Positions 2,898 to 17,067 of a DNA stretch of 23,944 nucleotides are shown piece by piece. This DNA comes from a virus. Each line of letters opens with the position of its first letter. Within the stretch, counting starts at the first letter, position 1. The DNA lies in IMG/VR virus record IMGVR_UViG_3300033571_021661, positions 1 to 23,944 of that record, one strand, 5' to 3'. Both the position numbers and the translations under genes were made by a program. The notes beneath the pieces are model-generated. The model worked only from the letters and a program-made list of their open reading frames with translations. It was not told where the DNA came from and ran no database searches.

Positions 2898-3482
2898 TTA
2901 AATTTCCGACTTAACACTAAACGTAGGCATTTCTTTTTTGCCGGTCAGCCATCCAGTAATAATATATTTTGTTTTATTAAATGGTGGATTTCCGCGATGT
3001 ACATGAGTAAATCCAGCAGGCCATATTGCAAACCTTCCTGCCTTAGGTTTTATTCTTAATCCTTGATATAAAAATTCTGTTTCACCGCCACTTTCTACGT
3101 CATTTAAATATAAAGTCCATGCTAGCATGCGATCAGTAGTATTATAATTGGTAGTTTCACAATGCCAGGTGTGATACCCGTCGCCGGTTAACGGTTTTGT
3201 TGATTGTATAATACAAATACTTGAAATAAGATCGATGCCTTTTAACCAAGTAAAGTCATCCGAATATTTGTTAAGACAGATCGACATATTTCGATATATG
3301 TGCTCGGCCCAATCTGGTCTACTTGCATCGAGAGGTATTTGATAATCTTGGATTGATAACCCGTCCGTTGAGGTTCGTCTGTGAACCAGTCCTTTTGTAC
3401 TAGAAAACTCGAACCATTTTATCAACTGATCGCATTCGTCGACCGACAACACATTGTCGTACCATCTAATAAAATTATCCAT
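2898..3482 (-). CDS. Prolyl-4-hydroxylase-like 2OG-Fe(II) oxygenase, HxE type (copy A)
   Basis: 194 residues with the P4Hc/2OG-FeII_Oxy_3 arrangement. GYHTWHCE gives the iron pair H107-x-E109, YLNDVESGGETEFLY (residues 125-139) is the family's hallmark strand, FTHVHRGNPP gives the distal His (H160 or H162), and K172 in KYIITGW is the likely 2-oxoglutarate ligand. The family hydroxylates proline or related residues using Fe(II), O2 and 2-oxoglutarate. The acidic ligand is Glu instead of the usual Asp, as in its two paralogues at 3487-4113 and 4735-5340. It has no signal peptide, so it should act in the cytoplasm. It follows copy B after 4 bases. The catalytic class is well supported; the substrate is not visible. 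Confidence 0.85.
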   Translation of the reverse strand: MDNFIRWYDNVLSVDECDQLIKWFEFSSTKGLVHRRTSTDGLSIQDYQIPLDASRPDWAEHIYRNMSICLNKYSDDFTWLKGIDLISSICIIQSTKPLTGDGYHTWHCETTNYNTTDRMLAWTLYLNDVESGGETEFLYQGLRIKPKAGRFAIWPAGFTHVHRGNPPFNKTKYIITGWLTGKKEMPTFSVKSEI

Positions 3483-3486
3483 TTAA

Positions 3487-4113
3487 TTACTCTAAAAAAT
3501 GTAACCAAGTATTCATAATATACTTGTCTCCAGTTAGTGGAGGGTTTCCTCTATGTGTGTGAGTGAAACTTCCAGGAACAATAATTATAGTGCCTGCGGT
3601 AGGTTTAACTCTTTTTCTTTGATATAAAAATTCTGTTTCACCGCCTTCCTCGACATCATTGAGATACACTATAACTAATAGTAATCGAGAACTAGTGTTC
3701 TCGCTGCCGTGTTCGCAATGCCATACGTGATATCCAGAAGATGGCTTTGTTTTTTGTATCTTAAAGGCACTGCGAAATCCGTGTTTACCTATAGATTCTA
3801 AGATGCCATATTGTTTCATATATTCGTTATAGCAGGGCCAAAACGATTTTTTAAATTCTTCTAAAAAATATAAATCCATACTAGATACAATTTCGTCCGA
3901 TGCTTCTAACGACATGGGAGAAGAGGACAGCCTATACGTATCTGTGTCTTTATCTATTAATCTTGTTTTTTCTAATTCTTGTCTATTAACAGTCATTCCC
4001 AAAGATTGAACCTGCTCATAATGATTGATTATTTTTTCACAGGTTTCCTTAGATAATGCATTATGAAAAATGCCAATAAAGTCGTTGATTTCGTAAGCCA
4101 CTTTGTTTTCCAT
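3487..4113 (-). CDS. Prolyl-4-hydroxylase-like 2OG-Fe(II) oxygenase, HxE type (copy B)
   Basis: 208 residues, clearly paralogous to the proteins at 2898-3482 and 4735-5340. Candidate iron ligands are H132 and E134 (GYHVWHCE) and H185 or H187 (FTHTHRGNPP). GGETEF is at residues 157-162, and K197 (DKYIMNTW) is the likely 2-oxoglutarate ligand. The N-terminal 100 residues are more variable and helical, as expected for the substrate-recognition part. It begins 2 bases after the stop codon of the YczE-like membrane protein. The ribosome site is weak: the ATG is preceded by CGGTAAAATAATT, so translation may be coupled to the preceding gene. All expected catalytic positions are filled. Confidence 0.87.
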   Translation of the reverse strand: MENKVAYEINDFIGIFHNALSKETCEKIINHYEQVQSLGMTVNRQELEKTRLIDKDTDTYRLSSSPMSLEASDEIVSSMDLYFLEEFKKSFWPCYNEYMKQYGILESIGKHGFRSAFKIQKTKPSSGYHVWHCEHGSENTSSRLLLVIVYLNDVEEGGETEFLYQRKRVKPTAGTIIIVPGSFTHTHRGNPPLTGDKYIMNTWLHFLE

Positions 4114-4115
4114 AA

Positions 4116-4727
4116 TTATTTTACCGGGCCAAAGTTAGGAATATTGAAAAAATTATGATTAAATCTCACACAAGGCTGGATTCCCCAACCTACAATTAAT
4201 AAAAACATCACAGTTCCTATTCCTACAGTGCCTCCAAGAAACCACCCACCTGTTAATAACAAAATTTCGATGACTCCCTTGAACAACCAGAATGGTCTAT
4301 TAGTCTTTTCAGACAACGAGACAGCAACTAAATCCATGGCTCTGATACCAAATCCGCTCATTAGTATTAGTGCGCTTCCCTGTAAACATAACAGAGATCC
4401 TGTGATCATTTCTATCACAGGTAACAACAACGAGGTATCATTTAGTGTCCATAGTCCAAAATCAATCATATATCCGCATAAGAAAAATGTTAGAAAAGTT
4501 GTGATCGGAGGAAATTTCCAATTATGAAAATATGACCATATCGCAAGGCACAAAATAGCAAATAAACTTTGTGTTGTTCCTATCATCAGTCCGAAGGTAT
4601 GTCTTACACCAACAGAAAACACATCTAAGGGATCTGCACCCATCCCGCTAATTATAAAAAAAGTTGCCCCTAACGAAAACAACACACATCCCAGAACATA
4701 CAAAATAAGTTGCTTAAAATTTATCAT
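4116..4727 (-). CDS. YczE-like integral membrane protein
   Basis: 203 residues with about five or six membrane segments (roughly 7-27, 45-64, 76-93, 101-124 and 148-183). It resembles the YczE/YyaS group of bacterial inner-membrane proteins, with GMGADPLDVFSVG near the first helix, GFGIRAMDLVAV after the fourth and LGGTVGIGTV in the last. The function of that group is not established; some members lie next to transport or regulatory genes. GAGG with good spacing precedes the ATG. It is inserted between two copies of the HxE oxygenase and is the only membrane protein in the island, which hints at an acquired host gene. Possible roles are transport of a substrate or product, or altering the host membrane; both are guesses. 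Confidence 0.75.
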   Translation of the reverse strand: MINFKQLILYVLGCVLFSLGATFFIISGMGADPLDVFSVGVRHTFGLMIGTTQSLFAILCLAIWSYFHNWKFPPITTFLTFFLCGYMIDFGLWTLNDTSLLLPVIEMITGSLLCLQGSALILMSGFGIRAMDLVAVSLSEKTNRPFWLFKGVIEILLLTGGWFLGGTVGIGTVMFLLIVGWGIQPCVRFNHNFFNIPNFGPVK

Positions 4728-4734
4728 ACTACCT

Positions 4735-5340
4735 CTATTTGTTAAAAACTACCCAGCTGGTAATGACATATTTAGTGTTGGATAATGGGGGATTTCCTCT
4801 GTGAGTGTGTGTATATGAGCCTGGCCACACAATTAATCTTCCTTGTTTAGATTTAATTCTTCTTGGATAATATAAAAATTCAGTTTCACCGCCTTCTTCA
4901 ACATCGTTGAGATAGAGTTGAAAAGCACAAACGCGGTCACTGGTAAACTTGTTTCCTTGCTCAAAATGCCAAGCGTGAAATCCCTGCCCTATTTCTGTTT
5001 TCTGTATCTTTAATTCGTCTATGCGAAGATCACAGTTTTCTGAAATAGTAAAATATTTGTTCTTTGCATATTCAGAAAAATGACTCCAGAAAATATCTAC
5101 AAATTCTTTTGAAAGTGTTCGAGTAGCGTTGAGCGTATATGACGATTCTTCAGATAGCATAATTGATCGATCATCTTTCAACGATCGGTCGACTCCGCTT
5201 TCTTGTTGTCTAGTATAGCATAAGCCGGCAGCATTGGCATTTTCAAAAAAATCTATTACTCGCTGACAAAACTCCGAACTATATGCATTATCAAAAACAG
5301 CGATAAAATCTTTTATATCAACATTGACTACTTGTTCCAT
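4735..5340 (-). CDS. Prolyl-4-hydroxylase-like 2OG-Fe(II) oxygenase, HxE type (copy C)
   Basis: 201 residues, third member of the HxE group. Iron ligands are H125 and E127 (GFHAWHFE) and H178 or H180 (YTHTHRGNPP). YLNDVEEGGETEFLY lies at residues 143-157, and K190 (KYVITSW) is the likely 2-oxoglutarate ligand. It shares most of the C-terminal half with copy B, including the RGNPPL stretch, while the first 100 residues differ, consistent with duplication and a changed substrate-recognition part. TAGGA lies about 10 bases before the ATG. The next gene in transcription is the membrane protein, which starts 7 bases after its stop. The family assignment is firm; the target is unknown. Confidence 0.87.
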   Translation of the reverse strand: MEQVVNVDIKDFIAVFDNAYSSEFCQRVIDFFENANAAGLCYTRQQESGVDRSLKDDRSIMLSEESSYTLNATRTLSKEFVDIFWSHFSEYAKNKYFTISENCDLRIDELKIQKTEIGQGFHAWHFEQGNKFTSDRVCAFQLYLNDVEEGGETEFLYYPRRIKSKQGRLIVWPGSYTHTHRGNPPLSNTKYVITSWVVFNK

Positions 5341-5343
5341 AAT

Positions 5344-6084
5344 TTAAAATCCTATAGGGCATTTTCCTGCCGATTCTCTAAATTTTTTATTCTTTTTATA
5401 ATTTCCAAAAAAACTAGATACATAGTTTTTTAAATATATTTGATCATATTCTTCTGATGTAACAGCATGACATCTAATTTCAACATCATACTCTGTTAAA
5501 GGAATTAGGTGAACCAATGGCATTCCAGCATTAACTGTAACTGCATTATCTTTTACAGGAAAAAACAAATTTAATTGTGTTGAAGACTGATCTTTATAGT
5601 TTACTATACCTGGCGGTGTGTAAAAATTTCCCAAGTGTGTTATCTGATTCCAGAAAGGTGAAGTATAATAAAACTTACAACCTGTTTTTTCCTTTAACAA
5701 CCACGGGGATTGAATTTTTACATGTATAAAATCATTAAACTCTGTTCCGAATTCTAAGCGGTTATGAGAATCTATCCTCGTATCAGTATCATTAGATGCT
5801 AATTTGCAACCCCAATTTCCATCCTTGTCTGTTTTTATGATCATATCAATCCATGCCGGTATAATAAATCCATGATTATAAAATTGTCTGATTCCATCAC
5901 ATTGTTTAATAGTCGATCTATTAATTGCAACATCATTAAGTTCATTAACAGTATAAAAAGGAGAGATATTTTTCCACCATCGAGGTAAGAATTTTTTTGA
6001 AGGTTCTATTGGAAATAGATCGTTAATTCCAGAAATTTTGGTAAATGCATCTACCACTATCTTTTTCTTTTTAAAGAAAAACAT
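5344..6084 (-). CDS. Conserved phage protein of unknown function
   Basis: 246 residues from the chosen ATG at 6084. That start is preceded by AAGGA at good spacing and sits 2 bases after the methyltransferase stop codon. An in-frame ATG at 6111 would overlap that gene and has no ribosome site. Visible landmarks are a PSKKFLPRWWKN stretch at about 28-39, STIKQCDGI at about 57-65, GFIIPAWIDM at about 72-81 and a short C-terminal KCPIGF tail. I have seen this pattern (PS...LP.WW, then TIK.C and a G.IIP..D strand) in hypothetical proteins of marine phages, but I cannot name a function. There is no metal triad like that of its neighbours, no membrane segment and no nucleotide-binding motif. Its place between methyltransferase and hydroxylase genes suggests a shared pathway. 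Confidence 0.75.
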   Translation of the reverse strand: MFFFKKKKIVVDAFTKISGINDLFPIEPSKKFLPRWWKNISPFYTVNELNDVAINRSTIKQCDGIRQFYNHGFIIPAWIDMIIKTDKDGNWGCKLASNDTDTRIDSHNRLEFGTEFNDFIHVKIQSPWLLKEKTGCKFYYTSPFWNQITHLGNFYTPPGIVNYKDQSSTQLNLFFPVKDNAVTVNAGMPLVHLIPLTEYDVEIRCHAVTSEEYDQIYLKNYVSSFFGNYKKNKKFRESAGKCPIGF

Positions 6085-6085
6085 T

Positions 6086-6688
6086 TTAATCCTTAATCCA
6101 ATACCATACATCGTTGTCGCAGAATTTAAGATCGATTCCTGTATCTGCTATAAACTCAAATACCGCTTTCTGAACTCCCGGCCAACTAAAATCATGCCCG
6201 GAAATAATTCCGCCATGTTTTACTTTAACATAATAATTCTTTATATCTTTGGCTACAGATTCGTAAGAATGTTCACCATCTATAAAAATATAATCTAAAG
6301 AACTATCTAATATTTGATCCACCGTGTCTTCAGATTTAGCTTCGATAAATTCTACTCGATCGCCGTACGGAGAAATATTTCTTTTAAACATATTTTTTAT
6401 ATTATCGGCATTATTTTGACTTAAAAATATTCCAGGTACTCCCTGTCTAGAACCGTCTTGATCATATAAGATAAATGGATCAATTGCATATAATTTTTTA
6501 AGATTTGGCAACGCATCTAAAAAATATACCGAATTAAATCCGTGTGCCACACCAATTTCACATCCCACAAGTTCTTTTCTAGGAAGAATTTCTATCAGCC
6601 CAACAGCCGAACACCGATCTGGTGGCGGCCAATAGCCCATAGCTTTGATTTCTTCTACAGTTTCTTTGAAATAAAATTCTTCTTGCAT
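6086..6688 (-). CDS. Class I SAM-dependent methyltransferase (Methyltransf_24-like)
   Basis: 200 residues with a Rossmann-type methyltransferase pattern. CEIGVAHGFNS (residues 43-53) is motif I binding S-adenosylmethionine, YAIDPF (67-72) carries the acidic residue for the ribose, DYIFIDGEHSYESV (132-145) is the post-IV strand with the conserved DG.H, and GGIISGHDF (159-167) follows. This combination is typical of Methyltransf_24 proteins and of cephalosporin-hydroxylase-like enzymes, often near sugar or natural-product genes. The acceptor is not deducible. It heads a run of minus-strand genes, divergent from the plus-strand oxygenase across an 89-base gap. No clear ribosome site is present: AAGTGG lies just before the ATG. 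Confidence 0.85.
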   Translation of the reverse strand: MQEEFYFKETVEEIKAMGYWPPPDRCSAVGLIEILPRKELVGCEIGVAHGFNSVYFLDALPNLKKLYAIDPFILYDQDGSRQGVPGIFLSQNNADNIKNMFKRNISPYGDRVEFIEAKSEDTVDQILDSSLDYIFIDGEHSYESVAKDIKNYYVKVKHGGIISGHDFSWPGVQKAVFEFIADTGIDLKFCDNDVWYWIKD

Positions 6689-6777
6689 CCACTTATATAT
6701 CTATCTTATTGAACGGTTATTCAATTATTGAAACTCATATTTTTTTCCTACAACAGAATTAAACATTAAATAGTGAC
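6689..6777. promoter_or_regulatory. Divergent intergenic region with palindromes
   Basis: The longest gene-free stretch in the window, between the divergent methyltransferase and plus-strand oxygenase genes, so it should hold a start signal for each. It contains TTGAA at 6709, TTCAA at 6720 and TTGAA at 6728. The last two form a perfect 13-base palindrome (6720-6732, TTCAATTATTGAA), which could be an operator. On the minus strand TATATAAG lies just before the methyltransferase ATG, too close to be an ordinary -10 for that start. I find no convincing -35/-10 pair or late octamer, so promoter function rests on gene orientation. Confidence 0.35.
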
Positions 6778-7248
6778 ATGCTATTTGAAAACATACTCGA
6801 TTCGACAGATTTAAAATTATTGCAACAGGCAATTATTTACGAAACGTCTAATTTTCCCTGTCTAATGGTACCACGATATCAAACTTATCCCACAATGCAT
6901 CGAAAGTATAAATTCTATCCTTTTTGGAAAACTCTAGAAAATAAAGTTTTGAAATCTGCAGAGCAGTTATATGGTAAAGAATTTATTGTTCACTCTTGTT
7001 GGTTTAATTTATGTAAGTCTGACAGCAATTTTGAGTGGCACACTCATCAGGGGTTTGATTCTACCTGCGTGTTTTATGCTGAGAATTGCGAAAATAACGG
7101 AACCATAATTCGCACTGAAAACGGAGTTGTACAAACTCCTGCCAAGGATAACAGTTTAATTTTTATGGATATTGGAGTAGAGCATACAGTTCCTCCTTGG
7201 CAGGGGGAAGATCGTCTATCAGTTGCTTTTCAATTGGTTTTCAAATAG
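6778..7248 (+). CDS. Small HxH-type 2OG-Fe(II) oxygenase-like protein, plus strand
   Basis: 156 residues, the only plus-strand gene in the island. EWHTHQGFDST gives a candidate pair H88-x-H90, LIFMDIGVEHTV the distal H136, and EDRLSVAFQL the Arg (R146) that holds 2-oxoglutarate. The order and spacing match its HxH neighbours, which end in R-I-S-x-x-F-N, but the usual SGV.Y strand after HxH is replaced by STCVFYAEN. At 156 residues it is 40-70 shorter than they are, mainly at the N-terminus. The ATG lacks a clear Shine-Dalgarno sequence. Its last 19 bases overlap the convergent halogenase gene. The class is probable; the unusual orientation suggests separate acquisition or an inversion. Confidence 0.65.
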   Translation: MLFENILDSTDLKLLQQAIIYETSNFPCLMVPRYQTYPTMHRKYKFYPFWKTLENKVLKSAEQLYGKEFIVHSCWFNLCKSDSNFEWHTHQGFDSTCVFYAENCENNGTIIRTENGVVQTPAKDNSLIFMDIGVEHTVPPWQGEDRLSVAFQLVFK

Positions 7249-8825
7249 GCCGATAAATCATCTATTGAAATTTGATTGTATAGATTTAAATTCGCAAGTT
7301 CTTTTTTGTAAAAATCGTTGTTAGACACAGACATTGAAAGAAATATTTCATCTTGCTTTCTTCTAATTTCATAATGAGCTTCTGCCATCTTATCAAGATT
7401 GAATTGTTGCAATTCATCCGCAGCAATTTTAGGATCTAATAATTTCATCCCAATTAGTATCTGCATCCAGAGTGTGTTACCTAAATCATAAAAATTATCA
7501 TTTAATCTGCCTTTATAATCTGTGGTACGAGGCATCCGTGTTTTCCACACAGCAAGTTTACTTTTTAATTCTTCGCTTCTTCTTTTCTCAGATGAAGCTT
7601 CTATCCAAAATTCTGTATCTTTTCTCGGAGTTATATAATGCATTACTATGAAATCTTTAATATCGTCCCATATACTAGTCATAGATTTATTGTATCTGTC
7701 TTGCATGTCAATGTTATTGAAATCCATCGTATGTGTAAAATATTGTTCTATAAAATGATTTATTTGAAGCATAGTCATGTGAATTGATGTTGCCTCTAAA
7801 GGTTCAACAAACGCACTGGCTAATCCTGAAGACAATACATTTTTAATCCAAAATTTTTCTAATCTACCTGCTTCAAATTTTATATCGTTTTGAGGATTTA
7901 TTTTAAATCCTAGATCTTTTTCAATTTCTTCTTGAGCTTTTTCTGGGGTTGTAAAATTATCATTATACACATAACCACATCCTTTTCTGTGCTGTAAAGG
8001 TATATCCCACATCCATCCATATTTTTTAGCAATAACATGTGTGTAATTATTAATTATAGTGTCTTCGGTATTAGCTACATGAAACGGCATGGCCCGGTTG
8101 ACCATTAGTTCGTTATTATAGCTAACGAATTTATTTTCAAATTCTTTCTGAATCAAAACTCGAAATGTGCCGGAACAATCTATAAAAAGATCCCCTTCTA
8201 TGCGTTTTCCAGATTTAGTAATAATACATTTAACGATCCCGTCGTTAAATTTTTCTGTTCCTACGATTGTGTCGTCTATATAGCTACAATCAGGATGAGA
8301 TAACACAGCTTTTTTTAAATATTGACCTACTTTATAAGTATCTAAGTGATATGCTACATGATGATATCTTAAATCAATTCTTTGCCCGTTATTGATTAAA
8401 AAAGGCATTCGATTGTTTAGCATAAACTGAGATTGATGCGCTTGATATTTTAAATTATTTGCCACATGAAATATTCTAAAATAATCATAGGTATATGAAG
8501 GATATCCTGTGTCGTTGCGATACTCGTCACCTAGCGGTGATGTAAATGATTCTCCGATTGTATGCCAGTCAGTATGTTTGATTCCTATTTTATAAGTCGA
8601 TCCTGTCTTTTCTAAAAAATCTTTTTCGTCAATGCAAATTTTTCCTTGCAAATTTATTAATCCGTTAAATCGACCGGTTGTGCTTTCTCCTACTCCGATA
8701 ATAGGTATTTCTTCTGCAGACACAACCTCAATTTTAACATCTACTGTTTTTTGTAAAAAATTTAGTGCAGTTGCCCAGCCGGCTGTGCCTCCGCCTACAA
8801 TAACTATTTTTTTTATTTGTTTCAT
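7230..8825 (-). CDS. Flavin-dependent tryptophan-halogenase-type enzyme
   Basis: 531 residues, full length for the family. GGGTAGW (residues 11-17) is the FAD-binding loop and GVGEST (44-49) the second flavin-contact motif. W271-x-W273-x-I-P is the W.W.IP signature of flavin-dependent halogenases. K79 in STYKIGIKH falls at the number of the catalytic lysine of PrnA and RebH, and E344 in EPLEAT fits the catalytic glutamate. Such enzymes use FADH2, O2 and chloride or bromide to make HOX, which the lysine relays to an electron-rich ring; a reductase must supply FADH2, and none is present here. The ATG overlaps the preceding stop as ATGA. The substrate could be tryptophan, a peptide or another aromatic. 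The enzyme class is firm. Confidence 0.92.
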   Translation of the reverse strand: MKQIKKIVIVGGGTAGWATALNFLQKTVDVKIEVVSAEEIPIIGVGESTTGRFNGLINLQGKICIDEKDFLEKTGSTYKIGIKHTDWHTIGESFTSPLGDEYRNDTGYPSYTYDYFRIFHVANNLKYQAHQSQFMLNNRMPFLINNGQRIDLRYHHVAYHLDTYKVGQYLKKAVLSHPDCSYIDDTIVGTEKFNDGIVKCIITKSGKRIEGDLFIDCSGTFRVLIQKEFENKFVSYNNELMVNRAMPFHVANTEDTIINNYTHVIAKKYGWMWDIPLQHRKGCGYVYNDNFTTPEKAQEEIEKDLGFKINPQNDIKFEAGRLEKFWIKNVLSSGLASAFVEPLEATSIHMTMLQINHFIEQYFTHTMDFNNIDMQDRYNKSMTSIWDDIKDFIVMHYITPRKDTEFWIEASSEKRRSEELKSKLAVWKTRMPRTTDYKGRLNDNFYDLGNTLWMQILIGMKLLDPKIAADELQQFNLDKMAEAHYEIRRKQDEIFLSMSVSNNDFYKKELANLNLYNQISIDDLSAYLKTN

Positions 8826-9499
8826 TTTTGTTCTTTCTTTATATTTAGATCTGCCATTGAAACATTATGCATTTTTGGATCATTCAAATTTAAATAGTCA
8901 GATCCCAGTAACGTTCCAATGTTTCCTTCAATCCATGTATTGAAAGAAAGACTAATCCTATCATGCTTACACACATTTTTTTTAACTGCATGATCAATGT
9001 AAGACGGAAATAGTATTAGGTGTTTTTTTTGAACTCGAGTTTCAAATCTAGTTGAGTTATACTCGTTAATTTCTGAAGGATAAAGTTTTAACGGAGTATA
9101 CATCATATTTTTTTCACTAAAAAATTCTATGGGAGCGGGTTCGTCAGTCATATAGAACACTCCGCTTATTATACTGTTTACATGAAAATGGCGAAAATGA
9201 TCGGTATTGTTGGGATTTTTATTCAACCAAGAAATAGTAGGAAAAATATTATTTTCAATACACATTACATTTTTCTTAAAATTATCTAAGTGTTCTTGAA
9301 TAAAGACTTTAATCCGTGATAATTCTGGAAAATTTAAAATATTAACAGAATCCGATCCTTTATTTTTATTCACAAAATGATCTGAGCATTGATAAAGATC
9401 AGGACGATGTATGAATTCGAGTTCTTCATTAGAAAACTCTTCTTCAAATTTTGCTATGTACAGCGGTGCCGGAAAGAGATTAGAAATTTGATAATTCAT
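8822..9499 (-). CDS. 2OG-Fe(II) oxygenase, HxH type (TIGR02466-like)
   Basis: 225 residues. HFRHFHVNSIISGVFYM contains the H-x-H (H104, H106) followed by the SGVFY strand typical of TIGR02466/2OG-FeII_Oxy_5 proteins. LFPSYIDHAV supplies the distal H170, and HDRISLSFNTW supplies R181, the likely 2-oxoglutarate ligand. The start of the protein (SNLFPAPLYIAKF) matches the family's N-terminal FP.P....E pattern. The family has no established substrate that I know of. A lysine-rich tail of about 35 residues beyond the core is not shared with its paralogues. It starts 1 base after the preceding gene's stop and overlaps the halogenase start by 4 bases, so the two are probably translated together. Confidence 0.83.
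   Translation of the reverse strand: MNYQISNLFPAPLYIAKFEEEFSNEELEFIHRPDLYQCSDHFVNKNKGSDSVNILNFPELSRIKVFIQEHLDNFKKNVMCIENNIFPTISWLNKNPNNTDHFRHFHVNSIISGVFYMTDEPAPIEFFSEKNMMYTPLKLYPSEINEYNSTRFETRVQKKHLILFPSYIDHAVKKNVCKHDRISLSFNTWIEGNIGTLLGSDYLNLNDPKMHNVSMADLNIKKEQK
8842..8849 (-). promoter_or_regulatory. Possible late promoter upstream of the halogenase
   Basis: The minus strand reads TCTAAATA, 7 of 8 to TATAAATA. It ends 16 bases before the halogenase ATG, inside the 3' end of the preceding oxygenase gene. Spacing would allow a leader of about ten bases. The same octamer recurs at 11790-11797 in a position too close to an ATG to work, so chance occurrence is a real alternative. Confidence 0.25.
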
Positions 9500-9500
9500 A

Positions 9501-10007
9501 TTATATTTTTTTAAACAAATAATTTATCACATATCGTATTCCTAAAAAATGTGAAGTAGTTGGTCTAGAGCAATGATGTATATTTGAATCAAAGACTACT
9601 GCTCGTTGAGGTATTGGAAGAATTGATTTTATAATTTCGTATTGTTCCGGGTTGAAAAAAATAGTTTCTCCTCCCCAATTAATATGCCATTGTTCGTGTG
9701 GATATAAAATTACACTAAAATCCCCGCCAGTATCTTGATGAATGTCTCCATGCGATCCTGTTTGATGTGCTATAGCCCAACATCGAACTAGTTTATAATT
9801 ACCATCGGGCAATAACTTCTGTATTTTTGAAATTAAATCTAAAAATAATTCAACATTATTTAAATCAGCTCGAAAAAATATACGCTGGCTTCCGACGTTG
9901 CCGGTTGATGTGTGTGTTCCGGAAAATATAGGCCCGTTGAGATATGTTAAAATCTTAGATTGTTCGTCATCGGATAAAAAATTATCGTAGATATTAATAA
10001 TAGACAA
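9501..10007 (-). CDS. 2OG-Fe(II) oxygenase, HxD type (SM-20/PHD-like)
   Basis: 168 residues, compact. HGDIHQDTGGDFSVILY gives the iron pair H90-x-D92. INWGGETIFF (109-118) is the WGGET strand seen in SM-20/prolyl-hydroxylase-domain proteins, RAVVFDSNIHHCSRP carries the distal His (H144 or H145), and R158 (GIRYVINYLF) is the 2-oxoglutarate ligand. It opens with IYDNFLS, as many P4H-like proteins do. The start codon is TTG at 10007, preceded by GGAG with 8-base spacing; no in-frame ATG lies nearby, and the TTG sits 1 base from the upstream stop codon. In cells this type hydroxylates prolines in regulatory or ribosomal proteins; the phage target is unknown. Confidence 0.85.
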   Translation of the reverse strand: MSIINIYDNFLSDDEQSKILTYLNGPIFSGTHTSTGNVGSQRIFFRADLNNVELFLDLISKIQKLLPDGNYKLVRCWAIAHQTGSHGDIHQDTGGDFSVILYPHEQWHINWGGETIFFNPEQYEIIKSILPIPQRAVVFDSNIHHCSRPTTSHFLGIRYVINYLFKKI

Positions 10008-10008
10008 G

Positions 10009-10578
10009 TTACCAACTCCAAGATACGAATGAATATCGAGTTCCTGCGGTCACTGAATTTACTCGATGTGGAAACATAAAATTTGAAGGAAATATTAATA
10101 AGCTACCGGCAGACATCGGAATCACTTCGCCGTCCCACATTATAAATTCGCCGCCTTCAAAATCGTCATTAAGTAATCCTACCATAGATAATATCGGAAC
10201 TCCTTGCCTGTTTCCGTCAAATAAACTATGGATATGATCACAATGCAGTTTCATATCGGTATTTTCAGAATATCGATTAAAACGAATAGGAGTGTATCCG
10301 TTCCATTTATTCCACCAATTAAATTCTGCGAAATCATTTAGAATATATCGTTCCAATGCAAACCAAAGTCTTTCGTTTATAATATTTCGAATCGGTATAT
10401 CACTATAGCTTACACTTAATTCGTTTTCTGTTGAATTTAATTCTTTAGTTTGAGAATTATAAAATTGATGATCTTTCCATTGTGCTCGTGCGATTAAATC
10501 ACTTACTGCAAAGTTACACATTGGAGGGTCTAAAAACCCATCGTACAATTTAACATATTGTCGTAGATCGTAATCCAT
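10009..10578 (-). CDS. 2OG-Fe(II) oxygenase, HxD type
   Basis: 189 residues. MKLHCDHIHS supplies H112-x-D114, LLNDDFEGGEFIMWDG (135-150) is the GGEF strand, SLLIFPSNFMFPHRV gives the distal H171, and GTRYSFVSW gives R181 for 2-oxoglutarate. Between iron pair and GGEF lies GNRQGVPILSMV, an insertion that may form a substrate loop. GGGA precedes the ATG. This architecture, P4Hc-like with a GNRQG loop, is one I associate with T4-like marine phages. It is preceded after 11 bases by an HxH oxygenase and followed after 1 base by the TTG-started gene. The catalytic class is confident; the target is not identifiable. Confidence 0.86.
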   Translation of the reverse strand: MDYDLRQYVKLYDGFLDPPMCNFAVSDLIARAQWKDHQFYNSQTKELNSTENELSVSYSDIPIRNIINERLWFALERYILNDFAEFNWWNKWNGYTPIRFNRYSENTDMKLHCDHIHSLFDGNRQGVPILSMVGLLNDDFEGGEFIMWDGEVIPMSAGSLLIFPSNFMFPHRVNSVTAGTRYSFVSWSW

Positions 10579-10589
10579 TGCTGTCCCAA

Positions 10590-11189
10590 TTAAATTTGTA
10601 AATTTGTCAAACCGCTGACATCGCCGATATCACCAGATACGAATGTGTTAAATGCTAAACTTATTCTAGTTCCGACACTTTTAGTTGTAGTAACCATATG
10701 TGTTAACGACGAGGGAAAAATAATTAGATCGTTCGTTTTAACTGAAAATTGCCAACTATCAGAATTAAACACATTATGTTCTCTCGGAGAAATTTGAATT
10801 TGTCTATAATCTCTATTAAAAAAGAATATCGAGTCGACGTTTTCTTCGGCTTCGATATAAAAAACTCCCGATAGCAGAGAATTAGGGTGGTCGTGACGAT
10901 GATGATACTCTCCAGGTTCTGTAAAATTAATCCATGACTGGGTAATCTCTAGTTTACAATTTGTTTTGGGCTTGTAGACATTTTCAAAATATGTATCTAG
11001 CGATGACTGAATAAAATCACGGATTTTTACTAGTTCTTGACAATTTAAAACACTTACATTAGAAGTCATGGTGTTTCCCATACTTCGACGTGTCGGTTGA
11101 TTTTTTACAAACGCACTTTCTGAGGATGATAACGATTGGTCATACTCAAAAAAAGCCACAGGAGATGGAAACAGTGTATGTAATAACAT
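10590..11189 (-). CDS. 2OG-Fe(II) oxygenase, HxH type (TIGR02466-like)
   Basis: 199 residues. GEYHHRHDHPNSLLSGVFYI is a textbook form of the family's central motif, with H99-x-H101 and the SGVFY strand. DLIIFPSSLTHMV supplies the distal H164, and GTRISLAFNTF supplies R175. The N-terminal HTLFPSPVAFFEY and the C-terminal FVSGDIGD stretch resemble the protein at 8822-9499, so the two are probably paralogues. Its ATG overlaps the previous gene's stop by one base and is preceded by an AT-rich stretch without a good ribosome site, which points to translational coupling. Enzymatic activity is likely; no substrate is known for the family. Confidence 0.85.
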   Translation of the reverse strand: MLLHTLFPSPVAFFEYDQSLSSSESAFVKNQPTRRSMGNTMTSNVSVLNCQELVKIRDFIQSSLDTYFENVYKPKTNCKLEITQSWINFTEPGEYHHRHDHPNSLLSGVFYIEAEENVDSIFFFNRDYRQIQISPREHNVFNSDSWQFSVKTNDLIIFPSSLTHMVTTTKSVGTRISLAFNTFVSGDIGDVSGLTNLQI

Positions 11190-11788
11190 TAAGAAAAATT
11201 AAAAGATATTGAAATTCTATCTTCTGTTGATAGATTCGCACCTACACTGTGTTTTAACCATCCTGGAAAAATTACCAAGGTTCCTTGAACAGCTTCAAAC
11301 ACAGCCCAACCGTCAGTGAAAAAACTTTTTTGATTAGGATTGGTAAAATGTTCTCCACCGTCGCTGCGCATGAATTCTATAGATCCTGAATTTTCAGGCT
11401 TTTTAATATAGTATGTTCCTGATAAAATTGCACCAGGATGCACATGCAATTGATTATAATTGTATGATCCGTTTATATTGGCCCATAAATTAGTTAGCGT
11501 TAAGTTTTGTAAACTTAGTTCTTTGGCTACTGAATCGACTACATTTAGTATTTGATTTAACAGTTCTTTCAAATCTTCGTGATCTAGATTTAAATCTTTA
11601 CTTTGCCAGCCGCCTTTATTGCTGTATGTTCTGCCTTCTTGGTCTTGTTCTTTGACAGAGTAGATAAACTTTTCTAATTTGTCGTTATCAATAGAAAGTT
11701 CAGAGGTCGAAATAACTGTTGGAAAAATTATTCGATTATTAATTTTAGTATCCGGTACTGGATTGTTTTGAGGTGGTATATGCATCAT
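11189..11788 (-). CDS. 2OG-Fe(II) oxygenase, HxH type (TIGR02466-like)
   Basis: 199 residues. NQLHVHPGAILSGTYYI gives H115-x-H117 with the SGTYY strand, LVIFPGWLKHSV the distal H180, and EDRISISFNFS R191 at the very C-terminus, so the protein ends just after the last core strand. A mid-protein segment (RTYSNKGGWQSKDL) resembles the 'S.GGWQS' substrate region of cellular TIGR02466 proteins. Two ATG codons occur in a row at 11788 and 11785; AGGA lies 11 to 14 bases upstream, and either could be used. The leader also contains TCTAAATA, too close to the ATG to be a promoter. It sits 30 bases after the JmjC-like gene. Confidence 0.85.
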   Translation of the reverse strand: MMHIPPQNNPVPDTKINNRIIFPTVISTSELSIDNDKLEKFIYSVKEQDQEGRTYSNKGGWQSKDLNLDHEDLKELLNQILNVVDSVAKELSLQNLTLTNLWANINGSYNYNQLHVHPGAILSGTYYIKKPENSGSIEFMRSDGGEHFTNPNQKSFFTDGWAVFEAVQGTLVIFPGWLKHSVGANLSTEDRISISFNFS

Positions 11789-11818: not shown

Positions 11819-12547
11819 TTAAATCTGATTAATTGTATAGTGGTTCCGGTCAATACTATACTCCGTCGGTTCGTTAAATTTTGGCCAACAAGGTATACTG
11901 ATTGACAATCGTTTAGTTTCGGGCATCGCTACATGATAAGTTCTAGCAGGAATATATAATAGATCTCCTGGATGCAAATCAACTGTTAGTGCCGGGACAA
12001 ATTTTTGAATTTCTTCATCAGTTGGTCGATAGCCGGAAGCAACTAGAGTAGATGCTCTGTTTTCAAACACAGTCCACGATGTTACTCCTTCTATTTGTAA
12101 TATAAAATTTGAAGGTATGTCTTCATGAACTTTGAAAGATTTTGATCCAGATAATCCACAATACACATGCATTGCAGCATCAGTATAAAATAAAGTCTCG
12201 ATAAGTTTTAATAGTTCGTTAGTGGCTGTGTTGTAAAACCCATAATTATTAATGATCAGCGTATGACCTAGATCTAGCTGTTCAAATAAAAATTTTTTAT
12301 CTTGAACTAGTTTGTTAAAAACCCATGCTTTTTTGTATTCTGGAATTTTTATTTTATCGTTGGTGTTTGAATCTATGATATCAAAATTATATAACACTGG
12401 ATTATTCAGACATTCTTCAACAGTATTCCAAGTAAGAAATTCTTCCGGAGCTGTTATTAATTTTTCAAAAACAAAAGGCTTGTCTGTTGTTAAAAGATGA
12501 GAATCTTTAAAAAGTTTCTGTCTAATATTGTTGTAATTATTTGACAT
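11819..12547 (-). CDS. JmjC-type (cupin_4/ribosomal-oxygenase-like) 2OG oxygenase
   Basis: 242 residues, the longest oxygenase here. The pattern fits JmjC hydroxylases of the bacterial YcfD/RoxA group: FKVHEDIPSNFILQIEGVTSW (split at residues 138-158) carries H141-x-D143 followed by the Q.EG..W strand, and VDLHPGDLLYIPARTYHVA (189-207) carries the distal H205. R213 near the end (KRLSISI) may contact 2-oxoglutarate. YcfD-type enzymes hydroxylate an arginine in ribosomal protein L16, which raises the idea of a ribosome-directed role, but the C-terminal winged-helix and dimerisation parts of those enzymes are missing here. The ATG overlaps the upstream stop by one base. The class is well supported; the target is inference. 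Confidence 0.82.
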   Translation of the reverse strand: MSNNYNNIRQKLFKDSHLLTTDKPFVFEKLITAPEEFLTWNTVEECLNNPVLYNFDIIDSNTNDKIKIPEYKKAWVFNKLVQDKKFLFEQLDLGHTLIINNYGFYNTATNELLKLIETLFYTDAAMHVYCGLSGSKSFKVHEDIPSNFILQIEGVTSWTVFENRASTLVASGYRPTDEEIQKFVPALTVDLHPGDLLYIPARTYHVAMPETKRLSISIPCWPKFNEPTEYSIDRNHYTINQI

Positions 12548-13167
12548 TATATTTTTGACTTCTCTGTATCAAATAAAATATTTCCAGACATAGATATTCG
12601 AGTGTCGTCTACTGTATAAAACGGATATACACAGTGCGATAGAGATGCCGGAAACATCATTATTTTTCCTTCAAAACTTTTATCAATCTTAATTATTTCT
12701 GAAAAAGAATTTCCAGTTATTGTCGAATAGTTAAATTGAAAACACGATGCATACATGCCGTCTTTAGTTTCTTCTTCAACATCATACGGAATTTTAAACC
12801 ATGCACTATAACTTAAAATTCCGTCGTGTGTATGAATAGGAATAAATTCTCCGCGTTTTTGTATATTAAACCAAGGATTTCCGGCTGTAAAAGAAACACT
12901 GTGTGATAGAGATTTATATGTTAATAAGTGATCTTGATATATATTAAGATATATGTCTTTTAATTTCATAATGTATTCTATAAATTCTGGCTGATGTGTT
13001 TGTTTCATAAAAAAATGTTTGGCAACACCGGCACCCGATAATCCAGAAGTCATTACTGTGTTATTTTTTTCTAAAGATGATGCTTCAGATTTTAGTTTAA
13101 GATAAAGATCTGTTGGGATTTCATCAATAATCACTCCAGAGTTACTTAAAATTAATTCTTTTATCAT
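12547..13167 (-). CDS. 2OG-Fe(II) oxygenase-like, HxH type, phage family
   Basis: 206 residues. WFNIQKRGEFIPIHTHDGILSY (residues 99-120) holds H112-x-H114 and D115, KIMMFPASLSHCVYP the distal H178, and DDTRISMSGNI the likely 2-oxoglutarate Arg, R190. The run H-T-H-D makes the iron pair ambiguous: H112-x-H114, or H112 with D115. It differs from the TIGR02466 set by a longer stretch between the iron pair and the distal His (FKIPYDVEEETKDG...), which may be a substrate lid. It starts 11 bases after the preceding stop and overlaps the JmjC gene by one base. The ribosome site is poor. Assignment to the superfamily is likely. Confidence 0.78.
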   Translation of the reverse strand: MIKELILSNSGVIIDEIPTDLYLKLKSEASSLEKNNTVMTSGLSGAGVAKHFFMKQTHQPEFIEYIMKLKDIYLNIYQDHLLTYKSLSHSVSFTAGNPWFNIQKRGEFIPIHTHDGILSYSAWFKIPYDVEEETKDGMYASCFQFNYSTITGNSFSEIIKIDKSFEGKIMMFPASLSHCVYPFYTVDDTRISMSGNILFDTEKSKI

Positions 13168-13178
13168 TTATTTTTTCT

Positions 13179-13748
13179 TTATAAATTAGTTGGTAATGCA
13201 CCAAACTGCAAAGCAAGGCTATATCGATATTGAGTAGCCATCATTGTTGGCGTCATAATCATATGAGGTATAGTTCCGTCAAATACAACCATCCTTCCAG
13301 GTTTATAGATACAGGTATACACAGCTTCGTCTAAATTATCGTCCATAAACAATGTATGCCCGCCCCATTCTAATTTCCATGTTATGCTAGCATAGTACAG
13401 TACCGTAACTCCAGCAGCGTCGCAATGAATAAAATTTCTTTCGCTAGGTGGAGAAAAATTTACTCTTATTAATTTTAGTTGACGGTTCTGTAAATCATAT
13501 CTATCGGTTATCTCTTTGAATAACGGAGTACTAGAAAATTCCATTTTGTCTATATCTGCTGGTGAAAATACAGAATAGATTTGTTGTATTTGATCGTGTT
13601 GTTCCTGACCCGATCCGTCGTTTCCTCCGATTTTATATATTGAATTTTTTATATAATTAAAAAATTTATATCGATCATTGAATGAAAAATAATCATCGTA
13701 CACATCTAATACTCTATTGTTGGGCAGAGAAATTTTTGTCATTGTCAT
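13179..13748 (-). CDS. 2OG-Fe(II) oxygenase, HxD type (SM-20/PHD-like)
   Basis: 189 residues. RNFIHCDAAGVTVLYY gives H108-x-D110, LEWGGHTLFMDD the WGG.T strand (residues 128-132), GRMVVFDGTIPHMIM the distal H162, and QYRYSLALQF R175. The order and the WGG.T strand match the protein at 9501-10007, so these two are probably related by duplication. In the WGGET motif Glu is replaced by His here. ATGA overlap with the preceding gene fixes the junction; a second in-frame ATG lies two codons in (MTMTK). AGGG lies about 10 bases upstream. Cellular relatives hydroxylate protein prolines. Confidence 0.84.
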   Translation of the reverse strand: MTMTKISLPNNRVLDVYDDYFSFNDRYKFFNYIKNSIYKIGGNDGSGQEQHDQIQQIYSVFSPADIDKMEFSSTPLFKEITDRYDLQNRQLKLIRVNFSPPSERNFIHCDAAGVTVLYYASITWKLEWGGHTLFMDDNLDEAVYTCIYKPGRMVVFDGTIPHMIMTPTMMATQYRYSLALQFGALPTNL

Positions 13749-14365
13749 TTGATGGTTACCCTGTTAATTGCGTCTTCTGTGCCGAAACCGCCTTTCACAA
13801 AAGAATTAAATCCAATAATTCTACGATTTTCGTTAGATAAATTTTCTCTCGCTCGATGCCTTAACCAACTTGGAAAAATTACAATAGTTCCTTGATTGGG
13901 TTTAATAGCCCAATTAGAACTGTTGAAGATATTCCATTCTGTAATGTCATATTCAAAATTAAAATCTTTAGACATCGGGCGAGAATAATAATGAAATTCT
14001 AAATCTCCATCTGGAACGTCTACATAATATACTCCTGAAAATATCGAGTTTGGATGCATATGGCTATGGTGAGATGAATTTTTTGGATTTCTTGTGGCCC
14101 AGGAATCTGTTATATAAAAATCTTGTTTTATTTTTAGAACTTCTTTGGTGTATATTTCTAACTCTTTTTGAAGATCCGATTTTAAATTGTTAAATGCTGT
14201 TTCTTCGAGAATAGTTTTATTTTTTGAAATATAATTATCATAAGGCAACTTAACTTCGTCTAAATTTTCTAAAAAATTTCTTTCGTCTGATGTTAGTGTT
14301 CTAGACAGATCTTTAACAAAGATTGGTATTCCGGCTAGTGGTATAACTTCAAATCTATTGCTCAT
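13745..14365 (-). CDS. 2OG-Fe(II) oxygenase, HxH type (TIGR02466-like)
   Basis: 206 residues from the ATG at 14365, chosen because GAGGA lies 7 bases upstream. An upstream in-frame ATG at 14401 would add 12 residues inside the preceding gene and has no such site. HHSHMHPNSIFSGVYYV gives H102-x-H104 and the SGVYY strand, TIVIFPSWLRHRA the distal H170, and ENRRIIGFNSF R181/R182. The N-terminus (VIPLAGIPIFVKDL) is the family's usual opening. It overlaps the end of the upstream gene by 11 bases and the start of the next by 4, so the three genes are tightly coupled. The family is firm; the substrate is unknown. Confidence 0.86.
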   Translation of the reverse strand: MSNRFEVIPLAGIPIFVKDLSRTLTSDERNFLENLDEVKLPYDNYISKNKTILEETAFNNLKSDLQKELEIYTKEVLKIKQDFYITDSWATRNPKNSSHHSHMHPNSIFSGVYYVDVPDGDLEFHYYSRPMSKDFNFEYDITEWNIFNSSNWAIKPNQGTIVIFPSWLRHRARENLSNENRRIIGFNSFVKGGFGTEDAINRVTIK

Positions 14366-14993
14366 GTTTATCCTCAATAAACATAAACTGACTAATTGCA
14401 TATCTACCCAACCCTTGGTTTTGAAATTCTGGTAACATATTCACAGTATCAACTTCGTGTGATAAAATTGATGGAAAGATCAAACATCGATTGTTTTTAC
14501 ATTCGAGTGTAAGAGTATTTTCAAATATAATGTCTCCGCCTGTAAATGCTTTGGGTTCTTTGTACAAGTAATAAATTACAGTTATCATTGATGCATCATG
14601 ATGTAATTTATAATAATTAGTATTTTCAAAATAGTGTACTTTGGTAGAATCGTTATTGACATTTGTTATAAGTTTAAAAAATTTATGTGCTTGTATCAAT
14701 GAAGATACCAATTCTGCATGATATATTGATCTTGTCTCTGTTATTATATTTGATGCTGATTTATCAGCATATACCGCGTCTAAAACTGTTCCGATGTTAT
14801 TTTTTAGATAGATTTTTTCGCCGTTGACGGTGTTGTAACCGCCACCTGTTCTATCGGGTGTACGCATTTTATTTGAGCCGTCATTTAGATATTCCAGTTC
14901 GCGCCAAATGTTTTTACAACTATTTTCGCTAAAATAATCATCAATAACAACAATTGGAAGATCGCAAGATTTGTACACTTCTATTTTGGTCAT
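14355..14993 (-). CDS. 2OG-Fe(II) oxygenase, HxD type (first gene of the island)
   Basis: 212 residues. YYKLHHDASMITVIYYLY gives H131-x-D133, AFTGGDIIFEN (149-159) is the GG(D/E) strand, CLIFPSILSHEVDTV supplies the distal H179, and GLGRYAISQFMF supplies R197. The opening PIVVIDDYFSENSCKNIW is the common N-terminal helix-strand of P4H-like enzymes. It is the most upstream gene of the oxygenase island on the minus strand. Its Shine-Dalgarno sequence (AGGA, 8 bases before the ATG) lies inside the 3' arm of the inverted repeat at 14996-15034, so folding of that hairpin would hide it. The enzyme class is confident. Confidence 0.86.
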   Translation of the reverse strand: MTKIEVYKSCDLPIVVIDDYFSENSCKNIWRELEYLNDGSNKMRTPDRTGGGYNTVNGEKIYLKNNIGTVLDAVYADKSASNIITETRSIYHAELVSSLIQAHKFFKLITNVNNDSTKVHYFENTNYYKLHHDASMITVIYYLYKEPKAFTGGDIIFENTLTLECKNNRCLIFPSILSHEVDTVNMLPEFQNQGLGRYAISQFMFIEDKHEQ

Positions 14994-15055: not shown

Positions 15056-15400
15056 TTATGCTTTTGGTATACGTTGTTTTACAGATAACACATGTTTATA
15101 CCACTCGGATGTTTCTTTTCCGGGCAATCTACCATAATGAATATCGTCAAATAACATTCCAAGCTGTGAATACGGATCTCCGTAGAAATGCACCCGTTCT
15201 GGTTGCCACGGTTTTGGACCGTAATCAGTTAGTTGAATTTTGCCAGTTTCTGTATTGTACTCATAATCTGCTTCTTGATCATATGTTTCTGGTCCTTCTG
15301 CCCAAAAATAATTATCGTGTACAGGAAATTTTAATTCGGCATTGTCGACGACTTGTGTTACTGTATTTGTTGATTTAATAACTAATGAATAATATGGCAT
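15056..15400 (-). CDS. Small protein following a fibre gene, function unknown
   Basis: 114 residues, acidic and rich in aromatic residues, with no signal peptide or membrane segment. The C-terminal half (GDPYSQLGMLFDDIHYG, then EWYKHVLSVKQRIP) follows a pattern I know from small proteins beside fibre genes in T4-like marine phages: a D-P-x-x-Q-L stretch followed by W-Y-x-x-V-x-x-V-K. Fibre chaperones and assembly proteins often lie just downstream of the fibre they serve, so an assembly role is plausible but not shown. AAGGAG precedes the ATG, and the gap to the 434-residue fibre is 9 bases. The terminator-like hairpin follows its stop codon. Confidence 0.7.
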   Translation of the reverse strand: MPYYSLVIKSTNTVTQVVDNAELKFPVHDNYFWAEGPETYDQEADYEYNTETGKIQLTDYGPKPWQPERVHFYGDPYSQLGMLFDDIHYGRLPGKETSEWYKHVLSVKQRIPKA

Positions 15401-15409: not shown

Positions 15410-16714
15410 TTAGCTGTAATTATAAACAATAACGCAACCGCCACCACCGTTGCCATATCCAGCGTTTCTGTCTGAGTAGTAACCAGATGATCCACCCGAA
15501 CCCCATTGTCCGTGCAGGATTTCAATATTTGAGTTTTGATTCATATGATGCGAACCTGCTTTAAACCAAAAACTTGAACCGCCGCCGCCTTCTCTGTTAG
15601 AACCGTGGCTCATTGTACCACCACCGCCTGGAAGATTGATATCTCCACCTGATGCGTCTCCGCCTGGTCCACCTTCATACGGGTTATCTGTAATACCGCC
15701 TTGTCCACCAGTGGCTGTGACAAATGGTCCAAAAGAACTGGTTCCACCAGTATTGCCTCGACCTCCGTAGTTATGTGTTCCGCCTCCACCTGCTGTGACA
15801 GAAACAGAACTGATATTAGTAACATCTAACCAACGTATAGCTGTGGCACCACCACCACCGCCAGCACCGCGATAATCGTTGTTAACATGTCGGCATCCAC
15901 CACCACCGCCTGTGACATAAACCAGTACGTTGGTGCAACCCGCTGGTCGTGTCCATGTGCCGCTAGTACCACCGCTGCTAACACTGTTCCATTGGCCGTT
16001 TTGTGTTGTATAAACGTTAACTGACAATAAACGTCCTCTTGAAGGAACGTTGGTTAATCCCGCACCGTCACCATAGAAATTAGCTGCATATATAGCTCCG
16101 CCTACACCAACTCCGCCTGCAACTCGCAATGCACCTGTGGACGTAGACGACGCTGCTGTGCTTTCATCTACGTAAACCTGACCTTTGGTAGCATTTGACG
16201 TTGATCTAAGAACTAGACTATTACCGGAACCTGTGCCTCCTGTTACTATAGGATTAAACAGCGTTCCTGTACTCGGTTGGAAACTTAATTTGGTGCTTGA
16301 AACTTTTGGACTTACAATTGCTCCTGTGGTAGACGCATTTAATACAGGATAGTGAATTGTTCCGGAGGCAGTTTCGTCAGCTACTGTGGCCTGAACCGTG
16401 GCAAAGGTTAATTCTCCAGATCCATTTGTAATGATGGCTTGATTGGCTGTGCCGTCTGTAGAAGGCAAAGTCCATGTGACATTTGCTGCCACTGTGGATG
16501 GCGCTTGAAATGCCACGTAGTTTGAACTATCTGCATCTGCAAATCTCAAATCTCCTTGTGCATCTATCTGTGCATCACCTACTACTTTAAATATTCCAGT
16601 ACCAGAAGGATCGAAAGTAATGTCTAGATTTTCTGCAGCCGTAACTGTGGTGTTGGTAATATTAATACCACCTACCGCTCCACCTACTTCGCCTGTTGTA
16701 ATTCTTCTTGCCAT
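15410..16714 (-). CDS. Tail fibre with glycine-rich adhesin-like C-terminus
   Basis: 434 residues in two parts. Residues 1-225 are a fibre shaft with short beta repeats (ITFDPSGTGIFKVVG, DGTANQAIITNGSGELTF, STGALRVAGGVGVGGAIYAANFYGDGAGL), known from cyanophage fibres. Residues about 250-434 form a glycine-rich domain with GTWTRPAGCTNVLVYVTGGGGG at its start and runs at 269-273, 285-289, 309-312, 363-366, 376-379 and 423-426, ending GGGGCVIVYNYS. Glycine runs of this kind build polyglycine-II sandwiches in receptor-binding adhesins of T-even-type phages, with variable loops between the runs. Here the loops (for example HVNNDYR and FWFKAGSHHMNQNSN) would be the host-contacting surface. AGGAG precedes the ATG. 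Confidence 0.85.
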   Translation of the reverse strand: MARRITTGEVGGAVGGINITNTTVTAAENLDITFDPSGTGIFKVVGDAQIDAQGDLRFADADSSNYVAFQAPSTVAANVTWTLPSTDGTANQAIITNGSGELTFATVQATVADETASGTIHYPVLNASTTGAIVSPKVSSTKLSFQPSTGTLFNPIVTGGTGSGNSLVLRSTSNATKGQVYVDESTAASSTSTGALRVAGGVGVGGAIYAANFYGDGAGLTNVPSRGRLLSVNVYTTQNGQWNSVSSGGTSGTWTRPAGCTNVLVYVTGGGGGCRHVNNDYRGAGGGGGATAIRWLDVTNISSVSVTAGGGGTHNYGGRGNTGGTSSFGPFVTATGGQGGITDNPYEGGPGGDASGGDINLPGGGGTMSHGSNREGGGGSSFWFKAGSHHMNQNSNIEILHGQWGSGGSSGYYSDRNAGYGNGGGGCVIVYNYS

Positions 16715-16727
16715 TTGATTCTCCTAA

Positions 16728-17048
16728 TTACGCTGTTGAGGTTTCAATGCCGTAGACTATAGCGTTCACGTTTACTGAACTGGAACGGACCACTAATAGT
16801 TTTCCAGCGTCTAAAACAAGACCCATCCTTTCTAAAACACCCTTAGCGGCTAAACTTACATCATATTCAATATATTCCGAGTCTGCAGGCGATGCTGATG
16901 CCGATATTGCTACTCTAATATTGGCAGCTGATGCTCCTCGATTTACTACGTTCAAAGTCACCACTGCAAATGTGCTTGCAGGCACTGTATAAAGCGTGGT
17001 GTTGGTAGCTGCTGCTAAATCCGCTACTCCTAGTCTTCCTGTTGCCAT
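16728..17048 (-). CDS. Small conserved virion-type protein
   Basis: 106 residues, beta-rich, with no Cys. The opening MATGRLGVADLAAATNTTLYTVPA followed by VVTLNVVNRGASAANIRVA matches a small protein conserved next to fibre genes in T4-like cyanophages, where it is annotated as structural or hypothetical. The strand-turn pattern suggests a compact beta-sandwich, such as a fibre connector or decoration protein. GGAGA lies before the ATG, and a late-promoter match (17068-17075) lies 20 bases upstream. The stop codon is 13 bases before the next fibre. The role is inferred from neighbours and resemblance. Confidence 0.78.
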   Translation of the reverse strand: MATGRLGVADLAAATNTTLYTVPASTFAVVTLNVVNRGASAANIRVAISASASPADSEYIEYDVSLAAKGVLERMGLVLDAGKLLVVRSSSVNVNAIVYGIETSTA

Positions 17049-17067
17049 AATTTATTCTCCATGTATA

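Follow-up and report, generated by a model that had tools for sequence, protein, structure and literature searches.

Flavin-dependent halogenases (FDHs) are already known from phages and are common in aquatic ones. The best described of them is VirX1, which was termed the first viral FDH and possesses an open active site and a broad substrate range, accepting many small aromatic compounds in vitro (PMC8407142). VirX1 corresponds to PDB 6qgm, and its gene occupies 5998-7587 of our Syn10 locus L007 (HQ634191 CPUG_00131). FDHs are carried by 20 of 153 cyanophages (PMC10452541), relatives were matched in 66 phage records, and at least 586 IMG/VR stretches encode one (586 of 600 among the stretches examined). 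In cyanophage S-SSM6a, a halogenase is clustered with 2OG oxygenases, cupin-type enzymes, carbamoyltransferases and methyltransferases, and the predicted product of this cluster is a secondary metabolite or a capsule decoration (PMC7824862). For T4-like cyanophages, prnA and multiple 2OG oxygenases have been listed, the oxygenases being related to the 2OG level or to DNA repair (PMC3037559), and a speculative role of a phage halogenase in antibiotic protection is repeated in PMC2984593. A first-pass annotation of the DNA described here had suggested that halogenation of protein or peptide tryptophan by a phage would be novel. In view of VirX1, the cyanophage survey (PMC10452541) and the described halogenase and 2OG clusters (PMC7824862), novelty of a phage FDH is not supported, and the gene at 7230-8825 is not a first. 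In the literature searched, we found no paper linking halogenases to tail fibres.

The gene is located in the IMG/VR virus record IMGVR_UViG_3300033571_021661, a 23.9-kb record that is probably a fragment. The whole stretch of 23,944 nucleotides was analyzed and is referred to as the window; its features are as follows.

307-2343, minus: baseplate wedge/tail fibre connector with a short collagen-like stretch, at the island edge (phrog_677)
2373-2894, minus: JmjC_2/cupin-type oxygenase (PF08007)
2898-3482, minus: 2OG-Fe(II) oxygenase (PF13640)
3487-4113, minus: 2OG-Fe(II) oxygenase (PF13640)
4116-4727, minus: YczE/YitT-like membrane protein (below curated cut-offs)
4735-5340, minus: 2OG-Fe(II) oxygenase of prolyl-hydroxylase type, HxE...H (PF13640)
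5344-6111, minus: phrog_7084/DUF6065-related protein with a predicted dUTPase-like fold, recurring beside phage halogenases
6086-6688, minus: methyltransferase, TylF/O-methyltransferase-like (PF13578)
6778-7248, plus: weak 2OG-Fe(II) oxygenase-like ORF, convergent with the halogenase (PF13759, below cut-off)
7230-8825, minus: flavin-dependent halogenase, 531 aa, K79/E344, WMWDIP at 271-276 (PF04820, phrog_2928)
8822-9499, minus: 2OG-Fe(II) oxygenase upstream of the halogenase, 4-bp overlap (PF13759)
9501-10007, minus: 2OG-Fe(II) oxygenase (PF13640)
10009-10578, minus: 2OG-Fe(II) oxygenase (PF13640; PRK05467-like, below the PRK05467 cut-off)
10590-11189, minus: 2OG-Fe(II) oxygenase (PF13759)
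11189-11788, minus: 2OG-Fe(II) oxygenase (PF13759)
11819-12547, minus: JmjC_2/Cupin_8 oxygenase (PF08007)
12547-13167, minus: 2OG-Fe(II) oxygenase (PF13759)
13179-13748, minus: 2OG-Fe(II) oxygenase-like, HxD...H present (PF13640, below cut-off)
13745-14401, minus: 2OG-Fe(II) oxygenase (PF13759)
14355-14993, minus: 2OG-Fe(II) oxygenase (PF13640)
15056-15400, minus: small protein adjoining the fibre gene (phrog_1787)
15410-16714, minus: tail fibre protein with a C-terminal glycine-rich domain, candidate adhesin and candidate substrate (phrog_863, PF21722)
16728-17048, minus: small tail fibre protein (phrog_11338/693)
17071-23943, minus: very large structural protein resembling tail fibres, gene possibly cut at its 5' end by the contig edge

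The halogenase ORF is free of internal stops over its 531 codons' worth of protein, and the product matches Pfam PF04820 (Trp_halogenase; E 1.7e-100, 337 bits at a cut-off of 21) and phrog_2928 ("tryptophan halogenase", E 2e-102), scores that place the family match far beyond chance. The GxGxxG dinucleotide motif is present near the N-terminus as GGGTAGW (residues 11-17), the catalytic lysine, K79 in PrnA and VirX1, falls exactly at residue 79, and the WxWxIP motif is intact as WMWDIP (271-276). EPLEAT occupies residues 341-346, and the catalytic glutamate E344, sitting in EPLEATSI, is aligned opposite E357 of RebH (counterpart E346 in PrnA). The four motifs named in the first-pass annotation could thus all be located, and the near-identical numbering of K79 and WxWxIP relative to PrnA was confirmed. 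Across an alignment of 153 FDHs, K79, W271, E341 and P342 are invariant and residue 344 is a glutamate in 146. The AlphaFold2 model, which was predicted using virus-contig relatives (pLDDT 88.1, pTM 0.88), matches SttH with a Z of 51.6 over 479 residues, indicating an FDH fold over the full length; further matches over about 480 residues are AbeH, 9luq, BrvH (Z 50.0), PrnA (46) and VirX1 (37.2). Judged by sequence and predicted structure, 7230-8825 encodes an intact FDH, as had been claimed before, and the unbroken ORF, the PF04820 match and the fold of the model all agree with this. Also in agreement with the earlier annotation, Pfam revealed neither a flavin reductase nor natural-product genes among the window proteins scanned. 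FDHs commonly work with unlinked reductases, and in enzymes of this kind it is usual for the reductase to be missing.

The relationships of the enzyme were analyzed with a FastTree phylogeny of 153 sequences. As the tree is midpoint-rooted and its deep supports are mixed, only the local clade is used. The halogenase groups with that of virus locus L001 (67-69% identity) in a clade that consists of virus-contig sequences only (L001, L011-L026, with L050 at its base) and that is separate from RebH/Thal/LooH/PyrH, from BrvH/6y1w/9luq and from VirX1. The phylogenetic placement suggested in the first-pass annotation therefore yields an all-phage clade away from the RebH and BrvH groups; PrnA itself was left out, and RebH, Thal and LooH stand in for its group. 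On this placement the halogenase belongs to a phage-specific clade.

The halogenase is embedded in an island of oxygenases, 11 of the 2OG-Fe(II) and two of the JmjC_2 type scoring above Pfam cut-offs and two more scoring weaker, which amounts to about 15; in most of them the Fe-binding residues are visible. This island is bounded by the phrog_677 connector (307-2343) on one side and by the phrog_863 gene and other tail-fibre genes (15410-23943) on the other. The first-pass annotation did not refer to this array. The halogenase gene overlaps the gene of the 2OG oxygenase upstream of it (8822-9499) by 4 bp (ATGA) and, tail to tail, the weak 2OG-like ORF on the plus strand (6778-7248) by 19 bp. 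The overlap with an oxygenase had been read earlier as a sign of joint action. The overlap and the association with 2OG enzymes are real, but such an overlap is ordinary compact-operon spacing, and since oxygenase neighbours are nearly as frequent downstream (26) as upstream (34), it was rejected as stand-alone proof. The T4-type late promoter TATAAATA is absent from both strands of the window (2.7 expected by chance), so late (co-)expression is unsupported. Low G+C was considered as a sign of recent import and rejected, because island genes lie below tail genes in G+C in 13 of the 13 loci compared. The island contains tailoring enzymes only: Pfam scans found no carbamoyltransferase, glycosyltransferase, sugar-nucleotide or scaffold-building enzyme in it. 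The YczE/YitT-like protein (4116-4727) lies within the oxygenase array and was not seen by profile search in the other virus loci searched.

Two of the flanking structural proteins contain residues that are possible targets of the island enzymes. The glycine-rich part of the fibre protein at 15410-16714 comprises 189 residues with 30% Gly and contains four Trp, nine Tyr and six His, possible sites for the halogenase. Residues 275-292 of the connector form the short collagen-like stretch GVPGPQGPPGPAGATGAG, which oxygenases of the prolyl-hydroxylase type adjoin and which is a possible target of prolyl hydroxylation. Residues 653-673 of the same connector include CQSHAGMVG, which resembles the copper-ligand motif of plastocyanin in weak matches (E 0.005 and 0.095), and a C-terminal cupredoxin domain is possible. 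The closest matches to the largest tail protein (17071-23943) are fibres of pelagiphages and Synechococcus phages, which align with roughly a quarter of its length at 34-38% identity. The window fibre protein gave no significant match to the annotated S-SRM01 adhesin and no match in the PDB by sequence.

Profiles made from the window genes were searched across all virus loci retrieved. Among the compared loci there are islands that contain between one and five halogenases, as many as a dozen oxygenases near one of these, and often phrog_7084. Such islands are flanked on one or both sides by the same tail-gene families in L027, L028, L029, L031 and L036, and these flanks are found further at L051, L052, L053, L063 and L069. 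In Syn10, P-TIM40 and S-RIM44, one or more glycine-rich fibre proteins are followed by a pair of halogenases, by phrog_7084 and finally by 2OG/JmjC genes. S-WAM1 has a glycine-rich fibre, one halogenase and oxygenases, with phrog_7084 absent, and here a relative of the window phrog_1787 gene lies between the fibre gene and the halogenase. The window protein 15410-16714 has the glycine-rich domain PF21722 in common with the fibre proteins of S-WAM1 and Syn10, and receptor binding has been proposed for the glycine-rich tips of Pam3 and S16 (PMC9608196). S-SRM01 carries its halogenase directly before a gene annotated as gp37-gp38 adhesin tip; in S-PM2 and HTVC008M the halogenase is away from fibre genes. 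Halogenases of several clades occupy the fibre-linked sites (L027, L051, L052, L053, L063, L069 and the window), and this speaks against a single layout having simply been inherited. Conversely, close relatives of the window halogenase often lie outside such islands: in L001 and L013-L015 the gene is situated between sigma-factor-like and gp47-like genes, several close relatives have no adjoining oxygenase, and no oxygenases surround the halogenase of L001. Island membership is therefore not a property of the halogenase's clade. In L020, L021 and L025, whose halogenases belong to the same clade, the gene is flanked by one tail-fibre-like and one baseplate-like neighbour, and no oxygenase was detected in the vicinity.

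Four to five halogenases per locus are found in L031, L036, L028, L032, L042 and L035, and as they stem from different tree clades, simple duplication seems less likely than a difference in their targets or positions. The recurrent partner phrog_7084 is predicted to be dUTPase-like (pLDDT 86.5, best Z 11.0 over 119 residues), and the best 50 listed matches are all dUTPases. It recurs beside phage halogenases in the window and in L029, L044, L059, L073, L007, L091 and L176, in as many as three consecutive copies, and some phrog_7084 genes are near neither halogenases nor fibres. A homologue in the archaeal virus HRTV-15 passes the DUF6065 cut-off and lies three genes away from an adhesin type that is linked to host range in that virus family (PMC8651126).

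Clustering was tested against uniform placement in ten large virus records that have matches to halogenases as well as to oxygenases. The distance to a halogenase is at most 8 kb for 47 of the 53 oxygenases (18.5 expected, P 5e-5) and for 9 of 11 tail-fibre matches (3.3 expected, P 1.4e-4), P values that are indicative only and overstate independence, because the records were found via their halogenase, represent related phages with shared gene order, and tail genes take up a large share of the genome. Oxygenase matches occur in 6 of 80 bacterial halogenase loci and in 40 of 81 virus loci, a contrast that is biased by the training of the profiles on virus loci. Taken as indicative, oxygenases and tail-fibre genes cluster around phage halogenases beyond chance.

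Our leading hypothesis, which we derive from gene location alone and to which we give somewhat less than an even chance, is that the island enzymes chemically modify the neighboring fibre or adhesin. The host would supply FADH2, from which the halogenase, with O2 and halide, would form hypohalous acid. As sequence and predicted fold suggest, this would reach K79/E344, where an electron-rich aromatic group would be halogenated. The halogenase, the roughly 15 2OG-Fe(II)/JmjC oxygenases, the O-methyltransferase and the dUTPase-fold partner would together form a tail-fibre-linked island of oxidative modification, acting on side chains of the tail fibre and the glycine-rich adhesin-like protein prior to virion assembly. 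Such modification could stabilize the receptor-binding tip or broaden the range of its chemistry. Host flavin supply, activity, action on protein and the fibre as target are what we infer here. The broader proposal, that many aquatic tailed phages carry a fibre-linked island whose halogenase(s) and about a dozen 2OG-Fe(II) hydroxylases modify the receptor-binding fibre tip post-translationally, we consider doubtful as it stands.

A strong rival, although itself rather unlikely in our view, is that the island enzymes synthesize or tailor a small molecule or a polysaccharide on the infected cell's surface, resulting in an antibiotic-like metabolite or an envelope change that blocks rival phages. 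Such a role was predicted for the S-SSM6a cluster (PMC7824862), sugar enzymes are found beside the halogenase at the S-SSM7 locus, and the in vitro activity of VirX1 on many small aromatics (PMC8407142) points in the same direction, as does the TylF/O-methyltransferase-like protein of the window; the methyltransferase and the membrane protein of the island would also fit a role in small-molecule or envelope chemistry. However, the island lacks the carbamoyltransferase, glycosyltransferase, sugar-nucleotide and scaffold-building enzymes, about 15 oxygenases are many for one metabolite, and the location at the tail fibres is left unexplained.

It is less probable still that the enzyme is a free-standing auxiliary halogenase acting on host aromatics or on oxidant or halide species, with the island being a hot spot for cargo genes. 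Phage halogenases do occur at many genomic places, and the 67-69% identical one of L001 has no oxygenases around it, but in whole records halogenases cluster with oxygenases, the same layout recurs with different halogenase clades, and recent import cannot clearly be read from the lower G+C of the island, a feature common to all 13 loci compared. That the protein is a flavoprotein of halogenase fold that does not halogenate, such as a monooxygenase, is very improbable, as both catalytic residues are intact, as is WxWxIP, which is believed to block monooxygenation, and as VirX1, another phage member of the family, halogenates actively.

The family name raises the question of tryptophan as substrate. 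Tryptophan-binding motifs have been defined as Trp1, Trp2 (HxF), Trp3 (group B only) and Trp4, and absence of Trp4 is associated with no interaction with tryptophan (PMC8269204). Trp4 was tested as YYxxF..EF..NFW (group A) or (Y/H)YHG.. (group B). In the window halogenase, S-P-L is found at 96-98 instead of HxF, and the region aligned to Trp4, YKGRLNDNFYDL-GN, has neither the group A Glu and Trp nor the group B YHG. Its Trp1 is GESTTGRF, resembling GESTLGHF of VirX1 and not GEATIPNL. From these motifs, the catalytic machinery appears intact and the known tryptophan pocket does not. With the recognition elements for free tryptophan gone, the published motif test indicates that the substrate is probably not free tryptophan; the missing motifs do not reveal the actual substrate. 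A 5-, 6- or 7-halogenase of free L-Trp, as the Pfam and PHROG names and the best phmmer matches in the PDB (Thal and LooH) would have it, is the least probable reading of all, given the exchange of HxF for SPL, the loss of Trp4, which PMC8269204 ties to no interaction with tryptophan, and the grouping apart from RebH, Thal, LooH and PyrH.

If the fibre hypothesis is true, halogenated and hydroxylated residues would serve in host recognition, VirX1-like enzymes would have their natural function there, and phages would enzymatically widen the chemistry of their adhesins beside the known ways to vary adhesin sequence. We think that the recurrent fibre-linked island is worth following because it offers a directly testable substrate for phage halogenases: halogenases of multiple clades with many hydroxylases recur at the tail-fibre locus, and the question of the natural substrate can be addressed directly in cultured phages.

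Among the named systems, the S-SSM6a and S-SSM7 clusters combine a halogenase with 2OG oxygenases and cupin-type enzymes like the window island (PMC7824862), but they also possess carbamoyl and sugar enzymes, whereas the window island has none by Pfam and is bounded by tail-fibre genes. The marine Pelagibacter phage HTVC008M likewise encodes an FDH, and the start of its gene overlaps a preceding gene of 2OG type; this halogenase is 30% identical to that of the window and is located between terminase subunit genes. PrnA, RebH, Thal and PyrH share the fold, the catalytic Lys and Glu and WxWxIP with the window enzyme, at almost the same numbering, but they have Trp2 and Trp4, which it lacks, and RebH, Thal and PyrH fall into a separate clade. 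BrvH (6frl), Xcc4156 (6y1w) and 9luq have the FDH core (model Z 47.5-50) and are devoid of Trp4 like the window enzyme, yet they keep the HxF of Trp2, which it does not have, and form a separate clade. VirX1 is only 24% identical, belongs to a different clade, has EPLESTG where the window enzyme has EPLEATS, and is encoded in Syn10 by one of two tandem halogenase genes, whereas the window has one. Nevertheless, VirX1 shares K79, WxWxIP, EPLE and a Trp1 of the type GEST.G.F with the window halogenase, and its locus presents the same neighbourhood of glycine-rich fibre, halogenase, phrog_7084 and 2OG/JmjC genes.
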